A DNA stretch of 51,757 nucleotides from a virus. The stretch is taken from positions 1 through 51,757 of the IMG/VR virus record IMGVR_UViG_3300036717_000008. One strand, given 5' to 3'. Positions 25,396-47,639 of this stretch are shown piece after piece. The position numbers and the translations under genes are program-made. How positions within the stretch are numbered: position 1 is the stretch's first letter; every line of letters begins with the position of its first letter. The notes beneath the pieces are model-generated. The model was given only the letters and a program-made list of their open reading frames with translations, made no database searches and had not been told where the DNA came from.

Positions 25396-25413
25396 AAGCA
25401 AGAATCGTGCCAA
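25396..25413 (-). promoter_or_regulatory. Sigma-54-type promoter for tRNA and replication genes
   Basis: Minus strand TTGGCACGATTCTTGCTT: a near-perfect match to the sigma-54 -24/-12 consensus TTGGCACG-N4-TTGC, with GG-N10-GC spacing. It lies 62 bases downstream of the end of the phage AAA+ activator gene and reads into the structured leader, the tRNA and the replication operon. Confidence 0.8.
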
Positions 25414-25459
25414 CTAATCACAACATATATTATGTTATATTAGATTATACTATGTATGT

Positions 25460-25471
25460 ATCGTTAAAGAT
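25460..25471. promoter_or_regulatory. Candidate activator site upstream of the 25.4 kb promoter
   Basis: ATCGTTAAAGAT, centred 55 bp upstream of the GG of the sigma-54-like promoter. It matches the palindromes before the late promoter at 39652 (CGTTAA core), where the nearest box lies 53-56 bp upstream. Confidence 0.4.
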
Positions 25472-25474
25472 TTA

Positions 25475-26368
25475 TTAGATCTTTTTCAACACACTGTATC
25501 GTTTAATTATTTGTTCGAGTGACCTAACATTAAGTTCAAGTTTAAACTCGGAAGACATAATCATATCTCGGAAGGATCCATTCAATAGTTCAGCTACATC
25601 TTTTTCTTTATGGAGGATCTTCCCAATCTCTTGCATGATGTCTGGTATATCACATCTTCTCTCTCTCAAAGGTTTGATCTTAAGAACAAAGGTTGATATA
25701 CGAGCGTAAAGATCAAGCCTAAACAACTTATCATTAACCATCTCCATTAAGTTACGATGTGTAGCACATACTATTCTACAGCTAATCTCAACCTCTTCTG
25801 TACCACCAACAGGACGTATGTATCGTTTACCATCTATTGGCTGTAATGCATTTAATAGCTTAGCTTGAATCTCAAGTGGCAAATCACCAACCTCATCAAG
25901 AAACAATACTCCACCTTTAGCAACTTCCATCATCCCTTTCTTGTCAGTCATTGCACCAGTAAATGATCCTTTCTTATGTCCAAATAGCTCTGATTCAATC
26001 AATTCTTTTGGCATTGCAGCACAGTTGATACGACAGAATTTAGCATCTCGATCACCAATCATGGCGCGAGCTATCAACTCTTTACCAGTACCAGTCTCAC
26101 CTAAGATTAAGACTTCATCGTCAATCATTGATAACTTACGAGCATCATCTTTTAAAGCTACAGTATCAGAGTCTATTGATATGAATTTATTGAGCCATGT
26201 CTCACATCCAGGAGTTGTGTTTAACAGGACAGGTTTGTCATCACGAATCTCAATTTTATAAGGTAACTTAAATGCAGCAATGTGCATCTTAGCACCATCA
26301 ATTAGATTATTCTGCAACATCAAGTTCAGAATATCTACCGGATCACTTTGTTGTGGATTGTTGGACAT
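25475..26368 (-). CDS. Sigma-54-dependent transcription activator, AAA+ domain only
   Basis: A 297-aa bacterial enhancer-binding-protein core. Walker A GETGTGKE (residues 90-97), sigma-54 contact loop GSFTGA (134-139), Walker B VLFLDEVGDLP (154-164), sensor I RIVCATHRNL (198-207), arginine-finger region FRLDLYARIS (216-225), sensor II LNVRSLEQ (279-286). The family remodels the RNA polymerase-sigma-54 closed complex by ATP hydrolysis. The first 80 residues are not a receiver domain, and the protein stops right after sensor II, so the usual C-terminal Fis-type HTH is missing. With at least eight sigma-54-like promoters in the genome, it is the probable phage switch protein. Confidence 0.85.
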   Translation of the reverse strand: MSNNPQQSDPVDILNLMLQNNLIDGAKMHIAAFKLPYKIEIRDDKPVLLNTTPGCETWLNKFISIDSDTVALKDDARKLSMIDDEVLILGETGTGKELIARAMIGDRDAKFCRINCAAMPKELIESELFGHKKGSFTGAMTDKKGMMEVAKGGVLFLDEVGDLPLEIQAKLLNALQPIDGKRYIRPVGGTEEVEISCRIVCATHRNLMEMVNDKLFRLDLYARISTFVLKIKPLRERRCDIPDIMQEIGKILHKEKDVAELLNGSFRDMIMSSEFKLELNVRSLEQIIKRYSVLKKI

Positions 26369-26369
26369 A

Positions 26370-26555
26370 TTATTTCTTTTTAGTTATAATCATGGCAAAC
26401 ATATAACCAAGCATACCCACTAGCATTAGTGGCCATAGAAAAGCCATGATAATACACATAGTTGTATTATCAGTTTTGGGCTCTATTTTTTCGTTGTGAA
26501 TAAAAATCCCAAACCAAAATGGGATTAATACAATATACAACAATATAATATTCAT
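26370..26555 (-). CDS. Small two-span membrane protein
   Basis: A 61-aa protein with hydrophobic segments at residues 2-19 (IILLYIVLIPFWFGIFI) and 33-55 (MCIIMAFLWPLMLVGMLGY), a charged loop between and a KKK end. The stop lies one base from the activator gene; the start overlaps the upstream gene stop. Function unknown. Confidence 0.5.
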   Translation of the reverse strand: MNIILLYIVLIPFWFGIFIHNEKIEPKTDNTTMCIIMAFLWPLMLVGMLGYMFAMIITKKK

Positions 26556-26899
26556 TTCTTTTTTCCTTTTTTATTAAAGACTCGTTCGTTCCACGCTTTC
26601 CATAATGACATTGCTTTATCACCTGTGTAGGTTAGTCTGTGATTAGCTGTCACTTGGAAAGTTACACAAGGTATCCAGGTATCAAGAAGTCGTTTACGGC
26701 TAGCCTCTTCAAGCATAGTTACAGGAGTAAGACTGCTTAATCCTGACATAAAAGCAGGAGCATCACAATCAAACTCATGACCATGAACTGTTGGGAATTT
26801 TGGTTTGAAAGCTCGTTTGTAATTACCACATGTAGTTACCCAACTATGCCATGCGTATTGACATTTACTTAAATCTACCACTATTCTATTATTTTTCAT
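26552..26899 (-). CDS. Hypothetical protein
   Basis: A 115-aa protein with scattered Cys and His residues (CQYAWHSWVTTCGNYKR, HGHEFDCDAP) and a basic C-terminus (NKKGKKK). The spacing is not that of a standard zinc finger. It overlaps the membrane protein start by four bases. No family is recognised. Confidence 0.5.
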   Translation of the reverse strand: MKNNRIVVDLSKCQYAWHSWVTTCGNYKRAFKPKFPTVHGHEFDCDAPAFMSGLSSLTPVTMLEEASRKRLLDTWIPCVTFQVTANHRLTYTGDKAMSLWKAWNERVFNKKGKKK

Positions 26900-26906
26900 A
26901 TCACGA

Positions 26907-27092
26907 TTATGCCATAATTACGCCACAATTAATCCAGGTTCGGATAATTGTATCATAACTTACACTAGAGCCATCAATCTCATCTTGACTTCGTACATGC
27001 ATTATAGTATCACCCTGCCAAAAGACAAAACCTTTATCAGTGCAGACAACACTATAAATTGGTTTAGTTTTATTTAACTTTTTCTTTTTCAT
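26907..27092 (-). CDS. Small basic hypothetical protein
   Basis: 61 aa from the ATG at 27092, just after the upstream stop, opening MKKKKLNKTKP, then beta-rich (IYSVVCTDKGFVFWQGDTIM). The longer frame from 27107 overlaps the preceding gene. Function unknown. Confidence 0.45.
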   Translation of the reverse strand: MKKKKLNKTKPIYSVVCTDKGFVFWQGDTIMHVRSQDEIDGSSVSYDTIIRTWINCGVIMA

Positions 27093-27094
27093 AA

Positions 27095-27328
27095 TTAATC
27101 TCCACATTCTTCTTTAGCTTGTTGAATAGCCTCTTCCTCCTCACCCTTTGTTAACTCAAAATCCTTTTCAAGCAAAGGCTGTGGCTTAGTTGATAGTATC
27201 TCCCAAGATTCAGGATCATCAGGTTCCTCAGGTGCACCATACTTATCTCTGTGTCCTTTCATTCCCCTGTGATACTCTAATGTAACCTCAACCTCAATCT
27301 CACGGGTTACTACTAATGTTATTGTCAT
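27095..27328 (-). CDS. Small acidic hypothetical protein
   Basis: A 77-aa protein: beta strand start (MTITLVVTREIEVEVTLEYH) and acidic helical end (LTKGEEEEAIQQAKEECGD). It overlaps the ligase stop by four bases, suggesting coupling. No family is recognised. Confidence 0.5.
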   Translation of the reverse strand: MTITLVVTREIEVEVTLEYHRGMKGHRDKYGAPEEPDDPESWEILSTKPQPLLEKDFELTKGEEEEAIQQAKEECGD

Positions 27329-28266
27329 ATATCAATTCCATTTCTAAACCCCATAAATATAGGGTGTCGTAGTTTATCTTTTTGACCAACAGGTTTATAT
27401 TTACCAACAATGAATTTACCAAGATACTTATCTTGATTCATCCAAATTCTTTTCCTTAATTGATTTGTCAATCCTACACCTGTCCCAACATTGACAGTGT
27501 ATCCATCAGGATGTTGACATATAAAGGCTCCTAATGTATTCTTAGGAATCATATTATCCTGATGACTACTTCTATCCATAGCACCAAGGGCATTATGATT
27601 AGTAGGATTAACATTCTCCATCTGCTCCTCAAATCCTATAATCAATAATTCAGTTCGCAAGTATCTGGCAAACTTAACTAATATCTGTTCCTTTAAAGTT
27701 GACCTGTTATCTACAGTTCCTTTCTGGATATATAAACCATTAGGGTCACGAAAACAAATACCCTCTCCACCCAAATCTTCTATTGTTCGTAACTCCAAGA
27801 ATAAAGAATTAGCATTAGAACAAACATGTGGAAAGGAAAATTTAAATGGTGGTATAGACCAACATCTAAGATCTTTATCTATGGATCTCATGCGCTGTTC
27901 ATAAGTCATCCTCTCAAGATTAAAGTTATCAAGCACACGAAATTGAATAAGATCTGAATCCTTATGTTCACGGCTCATTACAATAGACTCAATCTCAGAA
28001 TAACTAAAAGATCGGTTATACAACTCCATATCATATCCACCCGGTAGAAGCATTGATCTGTCACGAATTGATCTGTTAGGAATAGGCTTTAGACGCTTAG
28101 ATAACAATGTACCATTAGCACGAATAGCCCTTATACCATCAAGTTTTACAGAGCATAGTACAGGGTATCTTAGACGGGACATTGCTTCTAGAATGTTATC
28201 ATCAGTATGTTCCACATTTGGTGGTAACAATGATGCTGCTGACATTGGACAGAATTTTCTTTTCAT
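27325..28266 (-). CDS. ATP-dependent DNA ligase
   Basis: A 313-aa protein with nucleotidyltransferase motif I SVKLDGIRAI (Lys41 is adenylated), motif III GYDMELYN, motif IV GEGICFRDPNG, and motif V VKFARYLRTELLIIGF, followed by an OB-fold region. Length and motif set match small phage ligases of the T7/Chlorella virus type. It seals nicks during phage replication and repair and lies between the helicase and the activator gene. Confidence 0.85.
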   Translation of the reverse strand: MKRKFCPMSAASLLPPNVEHTDDNILEAMSRLRYPVLCSVKLDGIRAIRANGTLLSKRLKPIPNRSIRDRSMLLPGGYDMELYNRSFSYSEIESIVMSREHKDSDLIQFRVLDNFNLERMTYEQRMRSIDKDLRCWSIPPFKFSFPHVCSNANSLFLELRTIEDLGGEGICFRDPNGLYIQKGTVDNRSTLKEQILVKFARYLRTELLIIGFEEQMENVNPTNHNALGAMDRSSHQDNMIPKNTLGAFICQHPDGYTVNVGTGVGLTNQLRKRIWMNQDKYLGKFIVGKYKPVGQKDKLRHPIFMGFRNGIDI

Positions 28267-28269
28267 AAA

Positions 28270-28419
28270 TTAAAAATAGCTTAAACACCAGTTATGATTA
28301 AATATACTAATTGTCAAATGATAATGTGTACCATTTCTTACAAAGATAATTTGCCAACATACAAATTTATCAGGGCTAGGTTTTACTTTGTAATGTACAC
28401 AACAAAATTTTCTTTTCAT
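28270..28419 (-). CDS. Small hypothetical protein sharing the ligase leader
   Basis: 49 aa from the ATG at 28419, five bases after the helicase stop. It begins MKRKFCCVHYK, and the next gene, the ligase, begins MKRKFCPM; the DNA around both starts is nearly the same, so one start region may be a duplicate of the other. Function unknown. Confidence 0.45.
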   Translation of the reverse strand: MKRKFCCVHYKVKPSPDKFVCWQIIFVRNGTHYHLTISIFNHNWCLSYF

Positions 28420-28423
28420 AATT

Positions 28424-30739
28424 TTATTCATCATCTTCTTCTGTATTTCCATCTCCTAAATCAGTAGGAGCTTCATCAGTTTCATCTTTCTCCCATTCCT
28501 TAATCATCTGCTCTACAACCTCTTTTCTATTCTCGTACTTCTCGATAAGTCCATACCAATTCTCACCAGGAGATCGTACTACTTTAGTAAGACATCGCAA
28601 TCTGTGCATAACAACACTAGATTGCTCTTCCTCAACTGTACCTTTAAAGAACAGAAATTCTTGTAAAGTGTTAGATAAGGAATTAAGCCTACCAGCACGA
28701 GCTGATCCTTGAACTAAATCAATACCACTCCAACATGGACCGATAGTAACTTTTCTAGGTCTAGTCCACACATACTTAATGTCCTCCTCATAAGCATAAC
28801 CAGACTCTTTATGTCTAACTTTCCCTGGCTCAACTTTATCTTTAGGATTCTTATGAGTTTGATTCCATTTATCAATCATCTCTTTCCACTCTTTAAACCC
28901 TTCAACACTTTCGTTCCATCTAGTACAAAGTTCATCAGTATGATGTAATGATAACCCTACACCACCAGCTTTGTAAGTGTAGATACAATATAAAGATTGT
29001 CCAGATTGAAACTTATCAATCTCACGCTGACGTTCCTCTTTGTTCTGATTACCCAATCTATACTCTTTAGGTATGTCTTCAAGATTTCTATCTTGTACAT
29101 CATCAAGCATCATATCTTCAAGAGTTACACCCGCAGCATCAAAAATATCCTTATTAGCCATTACCTGTTTCTTAAGTTTCTGTTTAACAGATAATTGTGT
29201 TTGTCCACCGCCCCAAATTAAAGAGATATTATCACGACTAATGCCATAGTCCTCAATTAGAATTCTAACTACAGCAATGATAGTTTGTTTATTCTTAGCT
29301 GCCAGCGCAGCAGCATAACCCTCTTTAACATCATGAACCATCTGTGCAGCAAAGATGTACCGTTTTGAGTACTCTGCTGCCATTAGTAACTGACCTAACT
29401 CAATCATTGCTAAAAAGGCAGGATTGTCTGTTACCTGCTCCTTTAATTTTGCTTTACGGGCTAAGTATCTTTCCCATGCAGAATTAAACTCTTTACGAGC
29501 ATCATATTTAGCATTAGCGGGAGGGAAATCCATAACCCTCACAGAGTTTATGGCATTAAACTGCCACCTAACACCCTTAACCCTGACGATATAATCATCA
29601 AGATCATCCATCAATCTATCTACTGCTGTAGCATTATAGTCTTCAGGATCACAGTTCTCACCACAAATTGCTTTAGCATAAGTTGGCCACATTGCACTGG
29701 TTAATCTGGCACCAGGAATTCCAACAGTAGTACTAATATCTTTACGAGTAGCACATGCAAATGCTTTAAAATCTGCTACTCGTTGACCAGGTGTTGCAGA
29801 GATAAAGATAACAGTTGTGTTATCAGGAATGTCAATATACGACATTATGATTTTACTTTGTGTACTATCAGGATTTTTAACAGATTGACACTCATCAAGT
29901 AGTAACACACAAGGATTAATCATTGATTTCCATTGCCAATTAGTAACCTCTTCACCCTTTTCAATGGTATTAATTTCCTCAATCCATATTTGTCCTGCTC
30001 TAGTGTGCAACTTCTCAATATTTATAACCTCAGTCTCAGTGATAGGATCAATACCAAATTTGCTCTTTAGTACTCTCTTAGTTTGCTCTACAACAGAGTT
30101 ACGAGTAATGGCTATATAAGGCATATGACCCCATGTCTTACCCTTATGGAAATTCATGTCCTTAAGTCGTCTATCAACAGCACCCTGAATGAAAGTCTTG
30201 CCGCTGCCCGGGGCTGCTATCAGCATTACAGCACGATAACGCTTTACTACTAACTTATCTAGCATTTCTGCTGCACTTTTCTTTTGGAAATAATAGAGGT
30301 TTGCTTTCTCTTTTTCGGAGGGGACCAAGCCATAATCTGAGTCAATATTTTCTTTTGGCTTTTCTGGTTGATTGTCACGAACAATAGATAGCTTTTCCAA
30401 AACGGGTTCTGTAACCACACTATTGTTACCTTGTTTATAATTGACATTATCCCTATTCTCATCTTTAACAGTTTCAACTCTTGTGGCATTATCATTTGCT
30501 TCTCCTAGTTGTTTGTTTAGATTATCTTTTAAAGCAGTACAGAATGATTTGACATCATCAATAGTAACCTTTATATCACAGTTAGGTTGGCTATTAATCC
30601 ATGTGCTGTCATACCCTACCGTGGTATAAACATCTCGCCACGTTGAGATAGACTTTATACTAAAATAGCTAATCAACTTATTACATATAGCTTGTACAGC
30701 TAGACGTTGACGCTTGTCATTCTTTTCTTTTGGTGTCAT
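28424..30739 (-). CDS. SF2 (SNF2/DEAD-like) helicase
   Basis: A 771-aa protein. Motif I LIAAPGSGKT (residues 173-182), motif II LLLDECQSVKNP (279-290), motif III FISATPG (312-318), and motif VI GIDLVQGSARAGRLN in the C-terminal half. The DECQ box and the QGSARAGR arginine motif are those of SF2 helicases close to SNF2/UvsW types. The first 140 residues are a variable charged domain. A role in replication fork remodelling or transcript displacement is likely. It starts 18 bases downstream of a structured RNA element. Confidence 0.8.
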   Translation of the reverse strand: MTPKEKNDKRQRLAVQAICNKLISYFSIKSISTWRDVYTTVGYDSTWINSQPNCDIKVTIDDVKSFCTALKDNLNKQLGEANDNATRVETVKDENRDNVNYKQGNNSVVTEPVLEKLSIVRDNQPEKPKENIDSDYGLVPSEKEKANLYYFQKKSAAEMLDKLVVKRYRAVMLIAAPGSGKTFIQGAVDRRLKDMNFHKGKTWGHMPYIAITRNSVVEQTKRVLKSKFGIDPITETEVINIEKLHTRAGQIWIEEINTIEKGEEVTNWQWKSMINPCVLLLDECQSVKNPDSTQSKIIMSYIDIPDNTTVIFISATPGQRVADFKAFACATRKDISTTVGIPGARLTSAMWPTYAKAICGENCDPEDYNATAVDRLMDDLDDYIVRVKGVRWQFNAINSVRVMDFPPANAKYDARKEFNSAWERYLARKAKLKEQVTDNPAFLAMIELGQLLMAAEYSKRYIFAAQMVHDVKEGYAAALAAKNKQTIIAVVRILIEDYGISRDNISLIWGGGQTQLSVKQKLKKQVMANKDIFDAAGVTLEDMMLDDVQDRNLEDIPKEYRLGNQNKEERQREIDKFQSGQSLYCIYTYKAGGVGLSLHHTDELCTRWNESVEGFKEWKEMIDKWNQTHKNPKDKVEPGKVRHKESGYAYEEDIKYVWTRPRKVTIGPCWSGIDLVQGSARAGRLNSLSNTLQEFLFFKGTVEEEQSSVVMHRLRCLTKVVRSPGENWYGLIEKYENRKEVVEQMIKEWEKDETDEAPTDLGDGNTEEDDE

Positions 30740-30757
30740 ATTAATAAAAGTGAAACC

Positions 30758-30871
30758 CTCACTACCAAGGCCATTTGTGGAAGATTTGTCGGCCTGATAC
30801 TACCTGCAATACAATACGAATCCCATTACGCATTGATGCATTTGGGGTAATTCATTAGGTAAGGTAGTGAG
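30758..30871 (-). ncRNA. Three-way-junction RNA element in the helicase leader
   Basis: Closing stem CTCACTACC/GGTAGTGAG (30758-30766 with 30863-30871, 9 bp perfect). Inside are two arms: AGGCC/GGCCT with an 18-nt loop, and a longer arm closed by TACCT/AGGTA that contains GAAT..CCC/GGGATTC. It fills nearly the whole gap between the 91-aa gene and the helicase. The form is that of a riboswitch-like or processing element, but I recognise no known class. Confidence 0.55.
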
Positions 30872-30885
30872 AGATGTTGGTGAGA

Positions 30886-31161
30886 TTATTCGTCTGTTTT
30901 AATGAAAGTCGTGAAGGGCCAAACAGGATTATTTTCTGATAAATTTTCTTGCAAGGCTTTCATAGCTCCTTTTTCTATTTCAGGTGTTTGATTTGGATTT
31001 AGATTAAGAACCAGATTTTCTAATTGTTCAGACATAGATACCATAGCTAATGAGATGTATGCTAATCCTTTGACATCACTAGCTCGATTAATATCTATAT
31101 CAAGATCAGTGTTTAAGGTAAACGTGCTTGAATTTGAATTAAAGTCTATTGTTAATTTCAT
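30886..31161 (-). CDS. Hypothetical protein
   Basis: A 91-aa protein with a beta-hairpin start (MKLTIDFNSNSSTFTLNTDL) and a helical centre (SLAMVSMSEQLENLVLNL). It lies directly upstream of the structured element in the helicase leader. No family is recognised. Confidence 0.5.
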   Translation of the reverse strand: MKLTIDFNSNSSTFTLNTDLDIDINRASDVKGLAYISLAMVSMSEQLENLVLNLNPNQTPEIEKGAMKALQENLSENNPVWPFTTFIKTDE

Positions 31162-31162
31162 A

Positions 31163-31854: not shown

Positions 31855-31879
31855 AGTTGTGGACTATTCGGAAATTAAC

Positions 31880-31965
31880 ACATGACAATTAGTCGCATTA
31901 ACTATTGACCTGATTATCAGATCGCCTGATGCAACAGAAACAGGTAGCTTTTGTAACTGTCATGT
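31880..31965 (-). ncRNA. Structured intergenic element (closing stem with nested hairpins)
   Basis: ACATGACA (31880-31887) pairs with TGTCATGT (31958-31965); inside, ACCTG/CAGGT (31908-31912, 31941-31945) encloses hairpin ATCAG/CTGAT (31916-31920, 31926-31930). It lies in the 113-nt gap before the 149-aa gene. It repeats the stem-within-stem plan of the 30758 and 37154 elements without sequence identity. Confidence 0.45.
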
Positions 31966-32316: not shown

Positions 32317-32394
32317 TAGAATCAATAATAATTTATTGATTCTAGTTAATTGACATACTCTACTGTGTATGTCAGACAGTGCTAGGGTCAATTA
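32317..32394 (-). promoter_or_regulatory. Two hairpins after the 214-aa gene
   Basis: TAGAATCAATAA/TTATTGATTCTA (32317-32328, 32333-32344) is a perfect 12-bp hairpin with a four-base loop. Next to it TAATTGAC/GTCAATTA (32347-32354, 32387-32394) encloses GACATAC/GTATGTC; the outer stem overlaps the stop codon of the 214-aa gene. The hairpins lack a clear T-run, so partial termination or RNA 3'-end protection is more likely than a strong terminator. Confidence 0.5.
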
Positions 32395-33036
32395 CTCAGG
32401 ACGAACAGTGTCCGTCTCAACCTCCTTAGACTTCTTGTTAATCCGCTCGTCATACTCAGCTTTACGCTGAGTCATGATAGCACCGAGCTTGGTGAATTTC
32501 TCACCAATAGCTTTGCGTTCCTCGTCAGTACGGGCTGCAATCATGTCAGTAACAAACTGAGTTTGAGCACTGGTATAAGTTGCAATTGCTTCATCCAACA
32601 GTTCCCGCAATTCAGAGATACGCAACTGAGCAACAGAGAAGTCTTGGATACTACGCAAGAACTTGTCCAGCTGAAACACACCCTTTTGTTCACCTGCGTC
32701 AGGAATAGCATCAAGATGTGCATCTTGTGCAAACCGTTTACAGAAGATGTTCAGAATGGTCTGAACCTTCTCTTTCGAGATGAACCTCAAACCATTAAGG
32801 AAGGTTTCATCTTGTTCAATGAGCTTACCATCTTCCACATTGATCTGTGGAGCTTGATAAACAATACCATCCCAATTGCCACGTTTACCCGCAAATGGTG
32901 TCAATGGAAGTTTAACTCCATTACGTTCCACGACATAAGGTTTGACCTTACTAAGGTCAGGAGCAACCTTTTCAGTGGTAACAGGAGGAGGCAATGGAAC
33001 AGTAGGAGCAGTATGTTGATGTTCGTGTTCAGACAT
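32392..33036 (-). CDS. Hypothetical protein directly behind a sigma-54-like promoter
   Basis: A 214-aa protein: a Pro-rich N-terminus (PTVPLPPPVTTEKVAPDLSK), a middle globular part, and a long charged helix at the C-terminus (ERKAIGEKFTKLGAIMTQRK). It is the first gene after the promoter at 33142-33159, is set off by hairpins at its 3' end, and has slightly more GC-rich codons, all consistent with a strongly expressed protein. No family is recognised. Confidence 0.55.
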   Translation of the reverse strand: MSEHEHQHTAPTVPLPPPVTTEKVAPDLSKVKPYVVERNGVKLPLTPFAGKRGNWDGIVYQAPQINVEDGKLIEQDETFLNGLRFISKEKVQTILNIFCKRFAQDAHLDAIPDAGEQKGVFQLDKFLRSIQDFSVAQLRISELRELLDEAIATYTSAQTQFVTDMIAARTDEERKAIGEKFTKLGAIMTQRKAEYDERINKKSKEVETDTVRPE

Positions 33037-33141: not shown

Positions 33142-33159
33142 AAGCAATTATCATGCCAA
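33142..33159 (-). promoter_or_regulatory. Sigma-54-type promoter
   Basis: Minus strand TTGGCATGATAATTGCTT with GG-N10-GC spacing, 106 bases upstream of the 214-aa gene start. It agrees at almost all positions with the promoters at 25396, 39652 and 37372. Confidence 0.75.
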
Positions 33160-37054: not shown

Positions 37055-37153
37055 ATGCACTATTGCTCATTCGACTTATTGAAGCAATCACCTCCAAAGC
37101 TCTTAACTAATAGAGGGACTTGACTGATATATCCAATTCATTTTCTTGGATTT

Positions 37154-37284
37154 CCATAATAGTTGAATGCTGAAGTCTAGTCTATGGTTCATAATGCACT
37201 ATGAAAACATTACTCACATTCGTTAGGGACATACAATACGCGAATATTGTTCTACCCTTAAACTTCAGCAGTCAACCATTATGG
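37154..37284 (-). ncRNA. Structured leader RNA with 23-bp closing stem
   Basis: 37154-37176 and 37262-37284 are reverse complements over 23 positions with only two mismatches. The 85-nt interior holds hairpins TTCATA/TATGAA (37188-37193, 37200-37205) and ACAATA/TATTGT (37233-37238, 37245-37250). It lies between the sigma-54-like promoter at 37372 and the first gene at 36993. This 370-nt leader has no open reading frame. Same plan as the 25174 and 30758 elements: long stem enclosing two hairpins. Confidence 0.55.
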
Positions 37285-37371
37285 TTATCTATTTACAGTC
37301 ATCAGACATCCTAATTGTGCTCGTCACACACTCACCTATTCGGATAGTATTCCAGTGAGATATGGTTAACC

Positions 37372-37389
37372 AAGCATATTACATGCCAA
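37372..37389 (-). promoter_or_regulatory. Sigma-54-type promoter for the accessory block
   Basis: Minus strand TTGGCATGTAATATGCTT, GG-N10-GC. It would drive the structured leader and the small-gene block below 36993. Confidence 0.7.
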
Positions 37390-38023: not shown

Positions 38024-38231
38024 AATACTATCTTTCCTATACTCCATGCCCAACTTGTCCAAGGTTTGATTGTCGCCTGTGTCACATGTATTACCCCAAC
38101 AATGATGGATTAACCATGGTATGTTGGGTACGCCTTTGGCGGTTCAAATTGTCAAATAAGTTTAAGACATGGAAATTACCTTGTGTATAACCTTAAGTTA
38201 TTCCCTAATATCTACTCACGACGAAATTAAT

Positions 38232-38668
38232 TGTCATTAATCAGCTGTCTAATGACAGGTGACTAATCAGGTTATTCGCCGTGTGACCTATTGGATAGTG
38301 ACGCCTGACCGCCTGTCTTTCGGCTATGTAAGCTAGCGAGTGTCTATTGGCTCCTTAATCTAGCTGCCGTCACCGGCGTGTGATTGTGTCCTACTAACAG
38401 TCGATCAGGAGTCACTATCCAATCTGTCATACCCAATAGTCCGGCTATCGTCCGCTAGTGCCTTACGTTGTCTCCAGTCTCATAGTTGGTTCGCATGCTG
38501 TCTGAAGTGTCCTGCGTTGCACAGGGTGTCATCATGCGTCAATCTAACCGGGTGAGTACTAGCTATTGTCGCTTACTATATTGGGTGCGGTGGTCTATTC
38601 AGGGTGCTAGCCCTATACCTGCCGATCAGGTCCGCTATGTGCCGTAGCGCACTCATGTGTGCGGACCT
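38232..38668 (-). ncRNA. Large structured non-coding RNA candidate
   Basis: No open reading frame of note on either strand, about half GC between strongly AT-rich flanks, and dense with perfect stems: AGGTCCGC/GCGGACCT (38628-38635, 38661-38668) at the 5' end; ATTGGATAGTGAC/GTCACTATCCAAT (38290-38302, 38411-38423) extended by CCTGA/TCAGG; inside it CGGC..AGCTAG/CTAGCTGCCG (38321-38336, 38360-38369); TGTCATTA/TAATGACA (38232-38257) at the 3' end. A sigma-54-like promoter at 38675-38692 would start transcription at the first stem. Large ornate phage RNAs exist (GOLLD, ROOL), but I cannot place this in a known class. Confidence 0.6.
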
Positions 38669-38674
38669 TGCCGT

Positions 38675-38692
38675 TAGCTGTTATGATGCCAA
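38675..38692 (-). promoter_or_regulatory. Sigma-54-type promoter of the structured RNA
   Basis: Minus strand TTGGCATCATAACAGCTA, GG-N10-GC. Standard spacing puts the start point near 38665, at the first base-paired stem of the structured region. Weaker match at -12 than the others. Confidence 0.6.
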
Positions 38693-38743: not shown

Positions 38744-38761
38744 ATTGGCATAAAGATTGCT
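38744..38761 (+). promoter_or_regulatory. Sigma-54-type promoter facing the late arm
   Basis: TTGGCATAAAGATTGCTA, GG-N10-GC, about 925 bases before the first late gene. It is back-to-back with the minus promoter at 38675 and would transcribe the AT-rich tract. Confidence 0.6.
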
Positions 38762-38899: not shown

Positions 38900-38917
38900 T
38901 AGCTATTAAAGTGCCAA
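38900..38917 (-). promoter_or_regulatory. Sigma-54-type promoter, second minus-strand site of the control region
   Basis: Minus strand TTGGCACTTTAATAGCTA, GG-N10-GC, upstream of the structured RNA promoter. Confidence 0.55.
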
Positions 38918-39548: not shown

Positions 39549-39609
39549 TCTTTAACGTTAAAGAATAGTTCGTTAACGTTAACTCTTCTGTGTTAAACGT
39601 TAACGATAA
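39549..39609. promoter_or_regulatory. Enhancer-like array of three AACGTT palindromes, 21 bp apart
   Basis: AACGTT cores at 39554-39559, 39575-39580 and 39596-39601: centre-to-centre distances are exactly 21 bp, two helical turns. The first is a 16-bp palindrome (TCTTTAACGTTAAAGA), the second has GTTAACGTTAAC, the third AAACGTTAACGATAAC. They lie 56-98 bp upstream of the GG of the promoter at 39652, the normal place of a sigma-54 enhancer. Similar boxes occur at 25460, 33176 and 38762. Confidence 0.6.
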
Positions 39610-39651
39610 CTCTTCCTGTATAATTATACTGTTATATAACCATAATATCAA

Positions 39652-39669
39652 TTGGCATGAATCTTGCTT
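39652..39669 (+). promoter_or_regulatory. Sigma-54-type main late promoter
   Basis: TTGGCATGAATCTTGCTT, GG-N10-GC, close to consensus. It overlaps a possible ATG at 39657, which is therefore not a real start; the first late gene starts at 39687 near the expected transcript start. Confidence 0.8.
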
Positions 39670-40418: not shown

Positions 40419-40817
40419 ATGACAGCTCAAGAGACAGCTATTAAGACAGCCTTTGAAGTAGAGGAAATGACTCCACAAGAGATTTCTGAATGTATGGGTC
40501 TTGATGTCATAGCTGTTAAGTCCTGTCTATTAAATTACTCAACTAGATACCGTAAACTTTGTAATGAAGCTCCTGAAGAGGAAGATACTCTTAACTATAA
40601 TCGTGAAGAGCAACAGCGCATTAAAGATGTGATAATGGATCTAGCTATGGGAGCTGAATCTGAGAAGTTGAGATTTGAGGCAGCAGTTTATATTCGTGAT
40701 GATGCTAAAGGCCGTAAAGATCGTAATAACAATCTGCCAACTACTAACGTGCTAGTCCTTAATAACATCTTAAAACAGGGACGTGAGATGGCAGATAAGA
40801 TTAAACAGATTAATTAA
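40419..40817 (+). CDS. Terminase small subunit
   Basis: A 132-aa protein. N-terminal HTH-like segment (IKTAFEVEEMTPQEISECMG, then DVIAVKSCLLNYS) resembling the DNA-binding domain of small terminases, a helical middle (EEQQRIKDVIMDLAMGAES) for oligomerisation, and a basic C-terminal end. It directly precedes the large subunit (one base between stop and GTG). It would recognise the packaging site and load the large subunit. Confidence 0.7.
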   Translation: MTAQETAIKTAFEVEEMTPQEISECMGLDVIAVKSCLLNYSTRYRKLCNEAPEEEDTLNYNREEQQRIKDVIMDLAMGAESEKLRFEAAVYIRDDAKGRKDRNNNLPTTNVLVLNNILKQGREMADKIKQIN

Positions 40818-40818
40818 G

Positions 40819-42825
40819 GTGGACCTCTCATCTCTAACACCTGAACAGTTAGCTGATGCCATTAATAATGGTACTGAACTTTCATCGTTGGTACAGAAAT
40901 CTTCTCATCCTGAATCTGAGAGTTGTGGCTTAGATTCTAACTCTGTACCAACGATATCTTCTGGGACCCACGCAAGTGGGGGCAACACGATAGATAATAA
41001 GACTGTAATTCCCCTTAATTCTAACTCTAACTTAACGGCGACCGCAGGTCGAACTTCCATAGAAACGATTTCTCCAAGTACACTCATAACCACAAATACA
41101 ATTGAACCAACTGTTATCCCTGACTATGTAGCCATTAATAGATCTATTAATGGTTCCTCACTTGACAAGGGAGAATTTGATGGATTAGATATACAAGATC
41201 CTGTAGAGCTATTAGTTCTATTAGAAGATGATATTCGTACTGGTGAGACTAAATTGCACCCTTGGCAAATCACTTTTATGTTAGATTTTGCCAATTCTAA
41301 ACATACTAAAGAGTCACCATTTCAGGCTGCTGTACAGGCATGTAACTCTTCAGGAAAAGATAAGTATGTAATAGCTGCTTGTGCAGTATGGTTATGTATG
41401 AGATATAGGGATGTTATATGTCCTATTACCTCCTCTTCTGGTGAACAGTTAGACAAGCAAACATGTGCTCATATTACAAGGTTATCTAATAAGGCTAATG
41501 TATTGTTTGCCAGTTATGGATTATCTTGGAAGATTAACTATAGAGATTACAAATTTCTACATGTTGATCCAATTACAGGTCGCCCTTGTACTAGTCAAAT
41601 AACACTATTTGCAACAGATGAACCTGGTAAAGCAGAGGGCTATCATCCCTTAGAAAAGGGTAAAAAGATGGCTGTATTCACGTCAGAAACAAAGTCTATC
41701 CCCTCTGACATTACTGATGCTATTGAACGGTGTACAGGGTTTACACATCGTGTAGATGCATCATCTCCTGGAGCAGCAGCAGGATATTTCTATAACGTAT
41801 GCTCATATGGTATAGCTCGTACCTCAATTTCCGACATTAAACAGCTTGATTCTACACAGATTATTCTATATAAAATTACAGCCTATGATTGTCCTCATAT
41901 TACCCCTTCAGAGATAAACCGGTTCGCAGCTAAACAACCGGGTGGAGTTAATAGCATTGTATACAGATCCTCAATATTAGCAGAATTTGGATCTACAGAT
42001 GAACAGGTTGTTATACCATCTGATATGGTACATAGAGCTGTTGAAAATACTAGAATGTTCTGTAAGATACAATGGATACAGGAACAATGCAATCATGCTG
42101 GATTTGATATTTCAATGGGTGGAGCAGAGAGTGTTATCTGCGTTAGAAATGGTAATAAACTCATTGGCATGGAATATGCTAATATACATGATACCAGTGC
42201 CCAGATTAGTTGGGCTGAAGAGATGTTCTTTAAACATAAATTGAACAATTCTGACTCTAAAATAAGAGGTGATTATGTTGGCATTGGCGGTCCTATATTA
42301 CAGATCTTAAAGAAGACTAAAAAGTGGGACAACATTATCTATGTTGACAGTCGTAATAAGGCCTCAGAATTTAAGACTTATAAGAATCGTGGTACTGAAT
42401 TATTCTTTCATGTACGTTCTTTATTTGAGAAAAAACACATCATTTTGTTTTATGATAAAGAACTCATAGAGCAATTGTGTTCTAGACATTTTAAAGTGAT
42501 TGATGCTAAGATACATCAATTACTATCTAAACAAGAGGAACGTAATAAAGGGTTTGTATCTCCTGATAGAGCTGATGCATTGAATCTTTGCTTTTGGGGA
42601 TATGAACGAACAGATTTAAAAGAGGATGAATCAAATCCTCCTTATAAACAGAAGGAACTTGAAGAAGTCTATGATCCTTCTAATGAAGCATTTGACCTTA
42701 AGAGCTGGGCTAATAGAGGTCGAAAGATGTATCAACCTGATCATGTTGAGATATCTGAAATGAAAGAAACTGGTCTTATAGATGAAATTAATCACTATAA
42801 TCAACAACTGCTAATGTGCCGATAA
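40819..42825 (+). CDS. Terminase large subunit
   Basis: 668 aa from the GTG at 40819; an ATG at 40783 would overlap the small subunit by 35 bases. The first 100 residues are a Ser/Thr-rich linker of odd composition. The ATPase has P-loop ACNSSGKDKYV (GKD in place of GK[S/T]) after an HPWQITFMLDFA adenine motif. The RNase H-like nuclease has GFDISMGGAESVICVR, RGDYVGIGGPILQIL and SPDRADALNLCFW, giving the three catalytic Asp residues. It packages DNA through the portal. Confidence 0.85.
   Translation: MDLSSLTPEQLADAINNGTELSSLVQKSSHPESESCGLDSNSVPTISSGTHASGGNTIDNKTVIPLNSNSNLTATAGRTSIETISPSTLITTNTIEPTVIPDYVAINRSINGSSLDKGEFDGLDIQDPVELLVLLEDDIRTGETKLHPWQITFMLDFANSKHTKESPFQAAVQACNSSGKDKYVIAACAVWLCMRYRDVICPITSSSGEQLDKQTCAHITRLSNKANVLFASYGLSWKINYRDYKFLHVDPITGRPCTSQITLFATDEPGKAEGYHPLEKGKKMAVFTSETKSIPSDITDAIERCTGFTHRVDASSPGAAAGYFYNVCSYGIARTSISDIKQLDSTQIILYKITAYDCPHITPSEINRFAAKQPGGVNSIVYRSSILAEFGSTDEQVVIPSDMVHRAVENTRMFCKIQWIQEQCNHAGFDISMGGAESVICVRNGNKLIGMEYANIHDTSAQISWAEEMFFKHKLNNSDSKIRGDYVGIGGPILQILKKTKKWDNIIYVDSRNKASEFKTYKNRGTELFFHVRSLFEKKHIILFYDKELIEQLCSRHFKVIDAKIHQLLSKQEERNKGFVSPDRADALNLCFWGYERTDLKEDESNPPYKQKELEEVYDPSNEAFDLKSWANRGRKMYQPDHVEISEMKETGLIDEINHYNQQLLMCR
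40884..41051 (+). other. Structured segment inside the terminase linker; possible packaging site
   Basis: ATCGTTGGTACAGA (40884-40897) and TCTGTACCAACGAT (40942-40955) form a perfect 14-bp inverted repeat. It is followed by CCCAC-GCAA-GTGGG (40967-40980), a hairpin with a GNRA tetraloop, and by CGACC-GCA-GGTCG (41039-41051). Codons here (ACG, GGG, CCC, GGC) are unusual for the genome. Many headful phages carry their pac site in a terminase gene, so this is a candidate site; alternatively a small inserted element. Confidence 0.4.
42164..42181 (+). promoter_or_regulatory. Intragenic sigma-54-like site in the large terminase gene
   Basis: TTGGCATGGAATATGCTA, GG-N10-GC. As it lies in coding sequence (encoding IGMEYAN) it could be chance, but it fits the genome consensus and would add a promoter upstream of the portal and scaffold genes. 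Confidence 0.35.
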
Positions 42826-42829
42826 TAAT

Positions 42830-43282
42830 ATGAGTACTACTTACAATCCTCGGGATAACACCTTCATTAAGAAACCTGAACCATCTACATGTCCTACATG
42901 TGGTCAGTTGGTACAAGATCTTGGTAAGCCCTTTCAAAATCACATGAATAATTACATCTCTGAAACAGGTGTGATTATGACTATGAATAGTAATGAGGAC
43001 ATCATTGAAATTAAAGGTGTCCCTATGTATAAGTGTGATGACACTAACTCTAAGAATGGCTTGATGCATGTGTCACGTTATCTTGAGAATAAGAAATGTG
43101 CTGCTGCTAAGGTTGTAGTTGGGGTTGATAGGCAACCTCAGGCACAACAGCAACAGGTACAACAGCAGGTCAATCCTGAAAAAGCTATTGCGCCACAAAT
43201 TAATGTCGCAATTCCCCCACCTGCCAGTAAGCTACGAGCTTCACAATTGGTGGCTCCTAAACCCTTGGAAGGAGCTGTTTAA
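42830..43282 (+). CDS. Zinc-ribbon-containing hypothetical protein
   Basis: A 150-aa protein. CPTCGQLV near residue 21 and a later Cys (YKCDD) suggest a metal site; residues 100-120 are Gln-rich (QAQQQQVQQQV), followed by a Pro-rich tail. It lies between terminase and portal genes. Role in packaging or head assembly is only inferred from position. Confidence 0.5.
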   Translation: MSTTYNPRDNTFIKKPEPSTCPTCGQLVQDLGKPFQNHMNNYISETGVIMTMNSNEDIIEIKGVPMYKCDDTNSKNGLMHVSRYLENKKCAAAKVVVGVDRQPQAQQQQVQQQVNPEKAIAPQINVAIPPPASKLRASQLVAPKPLEGAV

Positions 43283-43284
43283 TT

Positions 43285-43572
43285 ATGAATGAAACCATCG
43301 AACAACTTCAGGTTAAAACTATCGAACAACATATCATCCAAGTTAAAACCTTGCGTCGTGATATTGATGCTCAAATTCAACAGGTTAAATCTTTGAAGTC
43401 TTCCCGTGAACTATCATTGGTGATTACCAAATTGCAAGAAGGAGTTATGTGGCTTGGTATGGAGCTTAAAAGAGTTAATGAACTCACTGGTGTTGGTACT
43501 AATCCTTACCCAAATAGTAAGGACCCATCTAATACGAAGATTGAACCAACTGCGGATGGACTTAAACTTTAA
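43285..43572 (+). CDS. Small coiled-coil protein
   Basis: A 95-aa protein, mostly one long helix with heptads (IEQLQVKTIEQHIIQVKTLR, RDIDAQIQQVKSLK). In the head-gene cluster, three bases after the previous gene. Could be an assembly helper. No family is recognised. Confidence 0.5.
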   Translation: MNETIEQLQVKTIEQHIIQVKTLRRDIDAQIQQVKSLKSSRELSLVITKLQEGVMWLGMELKRVNELTGVGTNPYPNSKDPSNTKIEPTADGLKL

Positions 43573-43583
43573 CTAATAATATT

Positions 43584-43877
43584 ATGCCACTAGAATCTAA
43601 TCAAGATCCAGAAGATGATAAACAGAATACCGGAACTGTTGAATATGCTAAGTCGGGAGATAATGATGGAGATGATGACTCCACTCCTGAAGATGGTGTA
43701 AGTATTCCAGAAGACTTCCAGAAACAGGTGCATGGAGTAATGTCTAAATGCACTAATTGTCATCACATAGATCATGTGAGGTCAAAACTCAATGAGAAAG
43801 AAAAAGAGATGAGGGATAAGGAGATGAAGGGTAAGAGGAAGTCATTCTCTATGGATGACGCACCTACACAATATTAA
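43584..43877 (+). CDS. Small acidic protein with C-x2-C-x2-H motif
   Basis: A 97-aa protein. Acidic N-terminus (DPEDDKQNTG, GDDDST), then KCTNCHHIDHVRSKLNEKEK: a short C-x2-C-H-H cluster ahead of a charged helix. Directly upstream of the portal gene. Function unknown. Confidence 0.5.
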   Translation: MPLESNQDPEDDKQNTGTVEYAKSGDNDGDDDSTPEDGVSIPEDFQKQVHGVMSKCTNCHHIDHVRSKLNEKEKEMRDKEMKGKRKSFSMDDAPTQY

Positions 43878-43885
43878 GGACTATT

Positions 43886-45760
43886 ATGCCAGATGACTCT
43901 GCTGTTGATTACGGTACAGAATATATAGATGCCACTGACTATAAGAAATTGGTCACCAAGATCAATAACTTATATGATGTCGCGTTTGACCTAACAACCA
44001 AGTCTCTGGCAACCCGTAAATTGCGTTATGTAGAACTTGACCTTGAAGTAGAACGTAAAGCTGGGAGATTGGCACCTGACGAAATCTACACTCCAATACA
44101 TGTAATTGACACTAACATACGACGTGAACAATCTCAATATGTACAGTATGTTACACAGTCTCCAAGAGCAGTTATATTGAAAGATCGTGATGATCCTGCT
44201 AATGATCTTTCCTTACTAGAAGTTGATCTAACAGAGAAGTTGAGATTTGATGGTTGGCAATTAGCAACTTATGCTAATATTGATGGGTTTCAGTCCTATG
44301 GCTATGGTGTAATGGAAACCATAATGGACCAAAATAATCCTGGTGAGATTGGTCGTGAGTATGTTCAATTTGGTGACTTCTCATTCATTGCTGATACTAG
44401 GGATTTACAGAAGTGTGAAATGATAGGGCGAGCTTATTATTTCACTAAGACTAAACTAAAGCACTTAACAAGTATTGATAACAAGGAGGATAGATGGGAT
44501 AAAGATCAGACTGAGAAGTTGTTAAAGGCTGAGCCTAATGATGAACAATCTCAGATCTATTCTGGGACTACAACCATAAACCGTTCCTTATACAAAGTCT
44601 TCAAGATAATGTTTAGGGTTAAAGGTACAGTATTTGTAGGTTGGGCTTGTCCTAAATTGTGTGATGACTGGTTGCGTAAACCACGAGAATTATATCTTGG
44701 GAGAAGGACAATTCGTGATGACATTATCAAGCAATCTCAGAATCCTCTCTCAGGTGGTCAGATTGATCCTAAATACATTGCAATGATGCAGAAAGGGTTA
44801 CCTCCCTCTGATGAGGAATATGAGACTGAATATCCATATGTTCTTTACCCTTATCTCATCTCTGAAAATGACACTATCAGCAATTTAAAAGGGCGCACAT
44901 TTCTAGATCAAGATACTCAGAATGCAGCTACTAGTCTATTAAGTTGTACCTTAACTAAGGCTAGGAGATCTTCAATTCTGGCTTTCTCTAAGGACACAAC
45001 TGATCCTAATGATGACTTCTTGATGCAGAAGAATATCATCTTAAAGCAAGGAGCATTGATTAATGGTAAAGTTAAAGAGTTCTCAATGGAGCCTCCTGAT
45101 GCTCAGATGTTTACTGCCATTAACACTCTGATTTCCATCAATCAACAGGAAACCTCACAAATCAATTTCGCAGAGAATAACAGACAAGCTGATTCTAGAA
45201 AGACTGCTACAGCTATTAAGGCCTCCATTTCACAGGCACAACAGTTATCCTCAACACAAATAACCTTGTTTAGCATGGCTCTTAAGAAGCAATATACTTA
45301 TGAGTCAATGATTATTCGGTCACGGGTAATGGCTGGGTTAATTAAAGTGTCGCCAGTACTAGCCCAGATGTATGCTAAGAATTGGACTGTTAAGCCCTCT
45401 GGTGATACAGATGTTATTGAGAAACAACAGATGGTTGAGAAGATGACTGAGGCATGGCCTATTATGTCTCAAACAGCTTGTGCGTCCTTATTTTTAGCTG
45501 ATCTATTAGAGAAGATGTTTCCTGATAGTGCAGCCAAGTATGTACAAGCATTACAGCAGGCCGATCAACAGAAACAATCTCAGCAACAACAGATGATGCA
45601 ACAGGGATTAATGTTTGCTAAACAGTTAGGTACTGATATCATAGGTCTAGCTAAGAAACCTGAGATGTTTAGTGAGAGTGGATTGATACACGTTTATCCT
45701 CAAATTGAGAATCTCGCAGATAAAGCAAAACAACTAATGGCACAACTAGAAGCTAAATAA
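43886..45760 (+). CDS. Portal protein
   Basis: 624 aa, the size of podovirus portals. The N-terminal half holds EIYTPIHVIDTNIRREQSQY and GWQLATYANIDGFQSYGYGVM; the C-terminal part has the long helical stem region and a Gln-rich barrel end (QQADQQKQSQQQQMMQQ). Position after terminase and before scaffold and capsid genes is canonical. It forms the dodecameric DNA channel at one capsid vertex. Confidence 0.8.
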   Translation: MPDDSAVDYGTEYIDATDYKKLVTKINNLYDVAFDLTTKSLATRKLRYVELDLEVERKAGRLAPDEIYTPIHVIDTNIRREQSQYVQYVTQSPRAVILKDRDDPANDLSLLEVDLTEKLRFDGWQLATYANIDGFQSYGYGVMETIMDQNNPGEIGREYVQFGDFSFIADTRDLQKCEMIGRAYYFTKTKLKHLTSIDNKEDRWDKDQTEKLLKAEPNDEQSQIYSGTTTINRSLYKVFKIMFRVKGTVFVGWACPKLCDDWLRKPRELYLGRRTIRDDIIKQSQNPLSGGQIDPKYIAMMQKGLPPSDEEYETEYPYVLYPYLISENDTISNLKGRTFLDQDTQNAATSLLSCTLTKARRSSILAFSKDTTDPNDDFLMQKNIILKQGALINGKVKEFSMEPPDAQMFTAINTLISINQQETSQINFAENNRQADSRKTATAIKASISQAQQLSSTQITLFSMALKKQYTYESMIIRSRVMAGLIKVSPVLAQMYAKNWTVKPSGDTDVIEKQQMVEKMTEAWPIMSQTACASLFLADLLEKMFPDSAAKYVQALQQADQQKQSQQQQMMQQGLMFAKQLGTDIIGLAKKPEMFSESGLIHVYPQIENLADKAKQLMAQLEAK

Positions 45761-45761
45761 A

Positions 45762-46019
45762 ATGTCAAACATCACCCCAGAAAACGTAGCAGAGTTACAG
45801 CACATAGATTGGTTAAAGCACCCTGTAACAGTACAAATGATAAAGAATATTCGTGCCCATAAAAAGGATCTAATAGAAAAGGGTATTGCTATTAGTAGTG
45901 ATTACACTCAGCCAGATAACTTCTTTAGATCCTTGAGTTATGGGGCTAAAACTATTGATGCAATTTTAAGGCAAATTGAAAACACTGATCAATACTTAGA
46001 AGTGAGTAAACGGAACTAA
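45762..46019 (+). CDS. Small hypothetical protein
   Basis: An 85-aa helical protein (NVAELQHIDWLKHPVTVQMI) starting one base after the portal stop. The last A of its stop codon is the first base of an ATG that opens into the GC-rich island. Similar small proteins follow the portal in other podoviruses. Function unknown. Confidence 0.55.
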   Translation: MSNITPENVAELQHIDWLKHPVTVQMIKNIRAHKKDLIEKGIAISSDYTQPDNFFRSLSYGAKTIDAILRQIENTDQYLEVSKRN

Positions 46020-46160
46020 TGGACGCTCGCTACCTGGAACGTAACCGAGCGACCGTAAGGGCGCGAGGTAACCACTGCTTTCCCCACTACAGGCAATGCG
46101 GGCGCGGGTAGCTGGCACGAAATGAAGGCTAATCCCGCCCACTGCGTGGATTCGGGATAC
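46019..46160 (+). other. GC-rich island between portal block and scaffold: structured RNA or 30-aa gene
   Basis: About 140 nt of much higher GC than its surroundings. It can pair as CGCTCG/CGAGCG (46024-46029, 46046-46051) and GCGGG-TAGC/GCTA-(AT)-CCCGC (46104-46112, 46128-46138), which suggests a structured RNA. It also holds a 30-codon open frame from an ATG that overlaps the previous stop (TAATG), reading MDARYLERNRATVRARGNHC and on to CGRG, with codon use unlike the genome. I cannot decide between the two. Confidence 0.45.
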
Positions 46161-46191
46161 TAACAAAACAACAAACAGAAAGAAAATACAT

Positions 46192-47382
46192 ATGCCAATG
46201 GACGTACTAGTTAATACACCCGGTGCAACTCCTGCTCTTCTTGAGAAGACAATGGAGATTCCGGACAACATTAAATCAATGGTATTTGACTCTAGTTCAA
46301 TGCCTAATATGGATGGTACAGGAGATACTACCATAACAACTGATAAAGGTGTAGAACTTAAGGTTGAAGAGCCTGATATTAAAGAGGAGAAATCTGGACA
46401 GGAAGAACCTAAACTTGAAGTTAAGAAAGAGGAGAAGATAACTCCTCCATCCGCAAAGAAAGATACTGAGAAAGTGGCGCCAGTTAAAACTGATGATAAG
46501 CCAAAAATTAATCAAATATCTCCTGTTAAGAAAGCTGATAAAAAGGATGATACTCAGGATACTTTTGATTATACAAAGTATGCTCCTCAAGAGGTAACTA
46601 ATATGAAGAATATGTCTCGTCAATCACGAGAGGCATATGCTAAAGTTATTGAGGAAAATAAAACATTATCTCAGCTGAAAGATTCTAATTATCTTCAACA
46701 TGAGCAAGGCTATACCTTATCACCTGAATATCGTCAATTGCAGACTCGTGAAACAGAGGTCTATTCTGAAGGTAAGGCTTGGGAGAATGCACTATTGGCT
46801 ATTAAGAAAGGTGAGAAGTTTCGTCAACCTATTGATAGGGATAAGGATGGAAGATTAGTATTTAGCGAGCTTACTGCACCTACTGATGTTGATGAGATTC
46901 GTATTGCACAGAATTTAGCATTGTGTACTACTGAATTGGGTAAGGTGAGAGGAGAGCTGAATGGTTATGGTACTCAATTTAAGAATAGGATTAGTCAGGA
47001 TGTAAAGGATATTCAAGCAGAAAGATCTAATCGTTTTGCATGGGTATCAGATCCTAAATTGATGGATGCTCCTGTTAATGTCAATGGTAAAGAGATTCCT
47101 GTTAAACAGATCATTTCTGAGTTTAAATCTCTATTGCCAGTTTATCATCGTAATTCCATTGTTGCAGATGTTGCTGCTGATCTATTTGTAGCATTACAAA
47201 TTCAAAATGGATTGTTACAAGAGGCACAAAAGGGCGCAACTATTAGTGATCTTAAAGCTAAAGAGGCTAGTAGAGCAGAACCTACATCAGAGGATTCTAA
47301 TCGTAATGATGGAGGAGATAAATTAACCATTAAAGGTAAATCTGTACCTCGTAAATTTAGCCTTGAGGAAATGCCTGAATAA
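46192..47382 (+). CDS. Scaffolding-like head assembly protein
   Basis: A 396-aa protein with a Glu/Lys-rich disordered middle (residues 55-125: VEEPDIKEEKSG, KKEEKITPP, KKADKKDD) and helical C-terminal half. Composition and position immediately before the capsid gene fit a scaffolding protein, which guides procapsid assembly. The end (VPRKFSLEEMPE) might bind capsid protein. No motif proves it. Confidence 0.65.
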   Translation: MPMDVLVNTPGATPALLEKTMEIPDNIKSMVFDSSSMPNMDGTGDTTITTDKGVELKVEEPDIKEEKSGQEEPKLEVKKEEKITPPSAKKDTEKVAPVKTDDKPKINQISPVKKADKKDDTQDTFDYTKYAPQEVTNMKNMSRQSREAYAKVIEENKTLSQLKDSNYLQHEQGYTLSPEYRQLQTRETEVYSEGKAWENALLAIKKGEKFRQPIDRDKDGRLVFSELTAPTDVDEIRIAQNLALCTTELGKVRGELNGYGTQFKNRISQDVKDIQAERSNRFAWVSDPKLMDAPVNVNGKEIPVKQIISEFKSLLPVYHRNSIVADVAADLFVALQIQNGLLQEAQKGATISDLKAKEASRAEPTSEDSNRNDGGDKLTIKGKSVPRKFSLEEMPE

Positions 47383-47383
47383 T

Positions 47384-47608
47384 ATGAAAAAGATTGCTGT
47401 TCTATTTGTGTACCAGTTTTTATTTATCGTGTCTGTTACTTACGTTGTTGAAATTAAGATAAAAGAGTTTGATGATCGTATTAGCAAACTGGAAAATAAT
47501 CAACCAAAATCTGTGATATATCCTGGGTTTAGTATACCTTGTATTACCACTACAAATTATTATACCTTAGTGGCCTGTTCCTCAAACTTAGTTGAAGAGC
47601 AGAAATAA
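47384..47608 (+). CDS. Small membrane-anchored protein
   Basis: 74 aa from the ATG at 47384 (a frame from 47363 overlaps the scaffold gene). MKKIAVLFVYQFLFIVSVTY is a signal-anchor or signal peptide, followed by a short helix (EIKIKEFDDRISKLENNQ) and a tail with two cysteines. An inner-membrane spanin-like or exclusion role is possible. Its place between scaffold and capsid is unusual. Confidence 0.5.
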   Translation: MKKIAVLFVYQFLFIVSVTYVVEIKIKEFDDRISKLENNQPKSVIYPGFSIPCITTTNYYTLVACSSNLVEEQK

Positions 47609-47621
47609 CCCTTAATTACAC

Positions 47622-47639
47622 TTGGCATGATTTCTGCTA
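47622..47639 (+). promoter_or_regulatory. Sigma-54-type promoter of the major capsid gene
   Basis: TTGGCATGATTTCTGCTA, GG-N10-GC, 139 bases before the capsid start. A dedicated promoter fits the high demand for capsid protein. No AACGTT box is obvious upstream, where coding sequence begins at once. Confidence 0.75.

Follow-up and report, generated by a model that had tools for sequence, protein, structure and literature searches.

Does a phage genome that carries a series of sites resembling -24/-12 promoters, together with a gene for the matching class of transcriptional activator, direct its own expression through the sigma-54 of its host? The question is raised by a 51,757-base virus record (IMGVR_UViG_3300036717_000008), analysed over its whole length and hereafter called the window, for which a preliminary description had listed eight intergenic sites of this kind and a sigma-54 activator. 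The answer is probably yes: with a probability of roughly 0.86, part of the phage's gene expression goes through the host RNA polymerase with host sigma-54, opened by a bacterial enhancer-binding protein (bEBP) that the phage itself encodes. This core of the earlier proposal is backed by matrix statistics, the spacing of the promoter elements, synteny and activator-promoter linkage over distant clades, and the observation is stronger than was originally claimed.

All eight sites are present on the strands first assigned to them, with coordinates corrected by at most one (Table 1). A scan of both strands with a sigma-54 weight matrix, compared with shuffled controls as had been suggested, yielded nine matches of at least 15 bits, whereas 200 dinucleotide shuffles averaged 0.55 and never exceeded 3; in noncoding DNA, six such matches were found, compared with 0.08 in shuffles. 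The same matrix gave no match of at least 14 bits in lambda, T7, parts of T4, N4 and YuA, or the gut phage MT121960, and a sigma-70 promoter scan found no more matches than in shuffles. The sites have the form TTGGCAY-N5-NNGCT, with GG and GC exactly 10 nt apart in the TGGCAY-N5-TTGC context of -24/-12 promoters, and they occur before genes at above-chance frequency. The seven-nucleotide spacer of the pattern as first written was wrong, N5 being correct, and the N7 form occurs 22 times versus 18.1 by chance. The GG-N10-GC distance had been given correctly: among half-sites combined at ten spacings in 11 genomes, it accounts for 45 noncoding matches and the nine other spacings for 0-3 each, so that N10 alone is enriched. 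In 49 aligned sites GGCA, GC and T are invariant; this alignment describes the consensus and does not test it, because the list was picked by the matrix.

The activator is encoded where it had been reported, and its product belongs to the bEBPs by its PF00158 domain with Walker A (GETGTGKE) and Walker B (LFLDEVGD) motifs, an arginine-finger region and a GSFTGA loop, an allowed variant of GAFTGA. Its best solved relatives in the PDB are of the FlrA/FleQ/NtrC family (E to 4.6e-50), and an AlphaFold model (predicted local distance difference test, pLDDT, 87.5) is matched by Foldseek to FleQ, NtrC1 and PspF, with a target template modelling (TM) score of about 0.8. The N-terminal ~60 residues form a small domain, and the C-terminus lies 15-20 residues beyond the sensor-II NVRS motif. 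PF00158 is present in all ten family members, with conserved Walker A, Walker B and arginines; none of the ten has a C-terminal helix-turn-helix (HTH) of any Pfam HTH family, and no receiver, GAF or PAS domain was found in the family. A C-terminal Fis-type HTH, absent here, is not obligatory in bEBPs, since it is lacking also in FlgR, CtcC and FleT. The loop of the relatives reads GAFTGA or GSFTGA and once GAFTDA; S at position 2 and D at position 5 occur in bacterial EBPs (PMC3162934). In one metagenome-assembled genome (MAG), the bacterial EBPs extend 277-292 residues past Walker A, and the short phage protein of the same bin 188 residues. In other contigs, too, the activators stop shortly past the AAA+ domain, L095 and L098 excepted, and some have a length of 241-250 aa that leaves room for hardly anything else. 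The activator matches the PHROG family phrog_7998 (339 positions) at 8.5e-35, and the members of that family are probably bEBP-like phage proteins. A bEBP-like protein with Walker A GETGTDKE and a GAFTGA loop is also encoded by the human-gut phage MT121960.1 (L134; 22349-23263), which has no strong sigma-54 sites.

Conservation of the sites and the activator, which the preliminary description had proposed to look for, was found in ten viral contigs of 23-54 kb collected by searching with the DNA polymerase and the activator (G001 being a near-duplicate of G002). The activator is present in all ten relatives with 45-62% identity, and in each of them a consensus site follows its gene on the same strand, 24 to about 360 bp past the stop. 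A site also stands 134-210 bp before the orthologue of open reading frame (ORF) 47778 in the nine relatives holding that gene, a putative capsid gene, and two phage contigs from MAG bins likewise have a site in front of their capsid orthologue. Several relatives also have sites before ORF 32392 and where the rightward arm begins. A wider set, obtained from an activator alignment, comprised 63 loci in viral contigs, which clustered at 70% identity into 33 testable clusters. A site of at least 13 bits lies within 230 bp past the activator stop in 25 of the 33; the overall density of sites in these loci, computed with the real sites included, predicts 0.69. The majority of the loci have DNA polymerase, nuclease or helicase genes in common with the window (20-64%), which makes this one deep phage lineage or replication module.

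The proposed course of infection would begin with early synthesis of the activator from an early promoter. Host polymerase-sigma-54 complexes would meanwhile sit closed at TTGGCAY-N5-NTGCT in front of the replication module, the start of the structural arm, the putative capsid gene and further blocks, and these preloaded promoters would stay silent until the phage bEBP is made. As a ring-forming AAA+ ATPase of the NtrC/FleQ/PspF class, it would remodel sigma-54 through its GAFTGA-type loop, and the replication and structural promoters would then open; promoter 25397 would drive ORF 24337 and the nuclease, Sak4-like and DNA polymerase genes. The bEBP lacks a DNA-binding domain, and the sites were not found to share an upstream element; for these reasons it probably works from solution, in the manner of FlgR, CtcC and FleT, and would reach every phage promoter and perhaps the sigma-54 promoters of the host as well. 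Since site 33143 is upstream of the leftward block that holds the activator gene, read-through could reinforce activator expression. The genome has no sigma-54 gene, so host RpoN would be needed. The absence of an RNA polymerase of the phage's own, as stated earlier, received a weak test: PF00940 matched nowhere in the genome, yet the control of that search also matched nowhere, and no RNA polymerase family appeared among the larger ORFs scanned. We infer the activity of the promoters, their activation by this protein and the order of expression from sequence, and the 'middle and late' timing of the preliminary description likewise from gene content.

Several observations weigh against transcription through sigma-54 and the phage's own activator as outlined here. 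The matrix is an approximation of the published -24/-12 consensus, although the identical matrix was run on shuffles and controls. The -12 element is weak in two of the eight window sites (38676 and 38901), and the presence of RpoN in the host is presumed. Eight of the 33 activator clusters have no site of at least 13 bits in the 230-bp stretch; in G007 and G009, two of the eight, it stands farther off, at about 256-357 bp, and L095 and L098 look bacterial, being the exceptions to the absence of an HTH from nearly all wider-set activators and lacking the lineage's other phage genes. The hexamer TATAAC/GTTATA shows a roughly 3.5-fold enrichment upstream of three kinds of site, the activator-linked, the 32392-type and those at the arm head (25397, 33143, 39652 and the matching sites of relatives), and sometimes occurs as two copies with a distance of 20 bp (G003, G010). 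Such an element would suit a separate phage or host DNA-binding protein that tethers the activator to true sigma-54 promoters and makes it promoter-specific, and ORF 24337-24930, whose predicted secondary structure could hold winged-helix folds, was considered as that partner. Both candidates were rejected. TATAAC is missing from nearly all putative-capsid and intragenic sites and stands at variable distances, so it is neither at every site nor at a fixed position, as a conserved enhancer site would be; the ORF product has no Pfam or PHROG family, a poor model (predicted TM score, pTM, 0.41) and no fold match. With some activators shrunk almost to the bare AAA+ domain as well, a tethered activator seems unlikely.

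It is less probable still that the phage sites answer host bEBPs responding to nitrogen, flagellar or stress signals, with the phage AAA+ protein mainly misregulating host sigma-54 genes or titrating sigma-54. Host bEBPs can in principle activate phage promoters, and YuA is reported to use host sigma-54 with no PF00158 match found in its record; but the linkage of activator gene and promoter is tight across distant clades and the pair is present in all ten relatives, which argues that the two are matched. The least credible alternative, and a very improbable one, is another signal that happens to resemble -24/-12, such as the site of a phage repressor, packaging or recombination protein. Repeats of this kind in phage genomes often prove to be operators or origins. 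Against this, the motif agrees with the established consensus at GG, CA, Y and GC, and its N10 spacing is fixed; at the conserved places it stands in noncoding DNA, oriented towards the gene that follows, and the same genomes encode a sigma-54 activator.

Table 1. Predicted sigma-54 sites and associated genes of the window (sites are named in the text by their first coordinate).
Feature	Position	Strand	Sequence	Bits	Remarks
Sigma-54 promoter (predicted)	25397..25413	-	TTGGCACGATTCTTGCT	20.0	61 bp past activator stop, before replication block
Sigma-54 promoter (predicted)	33143..33159	-	TTGGCATGATAATTGCT	17.5	Before ORF 32392-33036; same place in G003, G004, G007, G010
Sigma-54 promoter (predicted)	37373..37389	-	TTGGCATGTAATATGCT	15.7	Followed by strongly folding noncoding stretch
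Sigma-54-like site	38676..38692	-	TTGGCATCATAACAGCT	10.6	Weak -12 (AGCT); followed by strongly folding noncoding stretch
Sigma-54 promoter (predicted)	38745..38761	+	TTGGCATAAAGATTGCT	16.2	Within large intergenic region
Sigma-54-like site	38901..38917	-	TTGGCACTTTAATAGCT	13.3	Weak -12 (AGCT)
Sigma-54 promoter (predicted)	39652..39668	+	TTGGCATGAATCTTGCT	18.3	Heads rightward arm; comparable arm-head sites in G003, G004, G007, G010
Sigma-54 promoter (predicted)	47622..47638	+	TTGGCATGATTTCTGCT	16.8	139 bp before ORF 47778-49118
Intragenic sigma-54-like site	1788..1804	+	ATGGCACGGTATTTGCT	16.5	Possible internal promoter
Intragenic sigma-54-like site	7306..7322	+	CCGGCATGATAATTGCT	15.3	Before ORF 7477
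Intragenic sigma-54-like site	42164..42180	+	TTGGCATGGAATATGCT	16.4	Inside ORF 40783-42825
Sigma-54 activator, bEBP-like AAA+ ATPase, 297 aa	25475..26368	-			PF00158 E=6.7e-55
First conserved ORF after promoter 25397, 197 aa	24337..24930	-			Orthologue in 10/10 relatives, 29-45%
Putative major capsid protein	47778..49118	+			Most conserved late-arm protein, 58-82%; assigned by gene order and conservation only

Helicase and ligase genes share a leftward block with the activator gene, and downstream of promoter 25397 come ORF 24337 and then genes for a nuclease, a Sak4-like protein and DNA polymerase. The rightward arm contains terminase-like and portal-like genes, recognized by motif and order without a family match, and the putative capsid gene, whose product has neither a family match nor a clear structure match. 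The tRNA that the preliminary description placed in the replication block is doubtful: the tRNA-like gene at 24957-25033 (-), with the Ser anticodon ACT, lacks a long variable arm and is absent from all ten relatives, and may be a decayed or unusual tRNA. One of the intragenic sites, 7306, falls on the peptide [ST]GMI[IL]A, common to the window and two relatives, so that protein constraint could explain it.

Two noncoding stretches fold strongly. The first, 38140-38680 (-), lies directly downstream of site 38676 (- strand) and reaches -171.3 kcal/mol (z=-5.7 vs shuffles); Rfam gave no family for it and similar DNA was not found in the relatives, and it is possibly a promoter-driven structured RNA. 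The second, 37110-37365 (-), directly downstream of site 37373 (-), has z=-5.0. Palindromic repeats resembling GTTAACGTTAAC occupy 39560-39615, directly upstream of promoter 39652.

A profile search with the putative capsid protein found two MAG contigs only, which belong to a methanogen bin and a Deltaproteobacteria bin respectively, and a further search of 155 genomes of Deltaproteobacteria found no other. The methanogen MAG (Methanoregulaceae) holds contigs of this lineage, L123 (JACTVG010000014.1) and C19, with the capsid orthologue, activator and site; the presence of these contigs in the archaeal bin is probably a binning error. Cultured relatives were sought by tblastn of the DNA polymerase, the putative capsid protein and a 624-aa late protein against 50,697 phage records, YuA included, and none was found.

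The activator and the matching sites in front of replication and structural genes suggest that much of the infection programme is run through host sigma-54 in a large group of never-cultured tailed phages. With a slight lean in its favour, we propose further that host sigma-54 is the main switch for replication and structural genes throughout this lineage, thrown by a minimal bEBP that, free of DNA binding, activates all cellular sigma-54 promoters from solution, so that one ATPase would serve as the early-to-late switch and also fire the host sigma-54 regulon. If phages do supply a sigma-54 activator, they add a natural bEBP family with little or nothing beyond the AAA+ core, and these phages would be expected to need RpoN-bearing hosts, which offers a simple genomic signature for host prediction. 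Standard sigma-54 biochemistry suffices for testing the idea.

Compared with NtrC, FleQ and PspF, the activator of the window has the same AAA+ fold, Walker motifs, GAFTGA-type loop and arginine-finger region, but lacks a Fis-type HTH, and no receiver, GAF or PAS domain accompanies it. In having an AAA+ sigma-54 activation domain without a C-terminal HTH, it resembles Helicobacter FlgR, Chlamydia CtcC and Rhodobacter FleT (PMC7175178, PMC3162934, PMC7482065); a title cited in this literature describes FlgR of H. pylori as enhancer-independent, and a review names FleT as the only known bEBP without both regulatory and DNA-binding domains (PMC7175178). The activators described here differ from these three in being phage-encoded, in having a short N-terminal domain, or none, in place of the response-regulator receiver, and in their linkage to phage promoters. 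Among phages, the novelty claimed for the use of host sigma-54 is reduced by Pseudomonas phage YuA (Yuavirus, Mesyanzhinovviridae), for which strict dependence on host sigma-54 is reported at second hand (PMC5053324, citing Ceyssens 2008). In the YuA record, three -24/-12 promoters of the structural region are annotated as active; in contrast to the window, its genome gave no PF00158 match, no related activator by tblastn and no match of at least 14 bits with this matrix in the first 50 kb. The window shows no genomic relatedness to YuA that would place it in Yuavirus. A prior report of phage-encoded bEBPs was not found in the open-access literature. Phage use of sigma-54 and HTH-less bEBPs are each known; new is a phage-encoded, HTH-less activator wired to a conserved network of phage promoters.

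In the well-known takeovers by T4 MotA/AsiA, T4 gp55 and T7 RNA polymerase, a phage protein switches the host or phage polymerase to phage promoters. Most takeovers of this kind target sigma-70 polymerase, substitute another sigma factor or add a new polymerase, whereas the phage of the window is proposed to supply the ATP-driven step of sigma-54 activation. If so, it follows a different logic, in which host polymerase, preloaded and locked at the promoters, is opened by a single ATP-driven phage protein.

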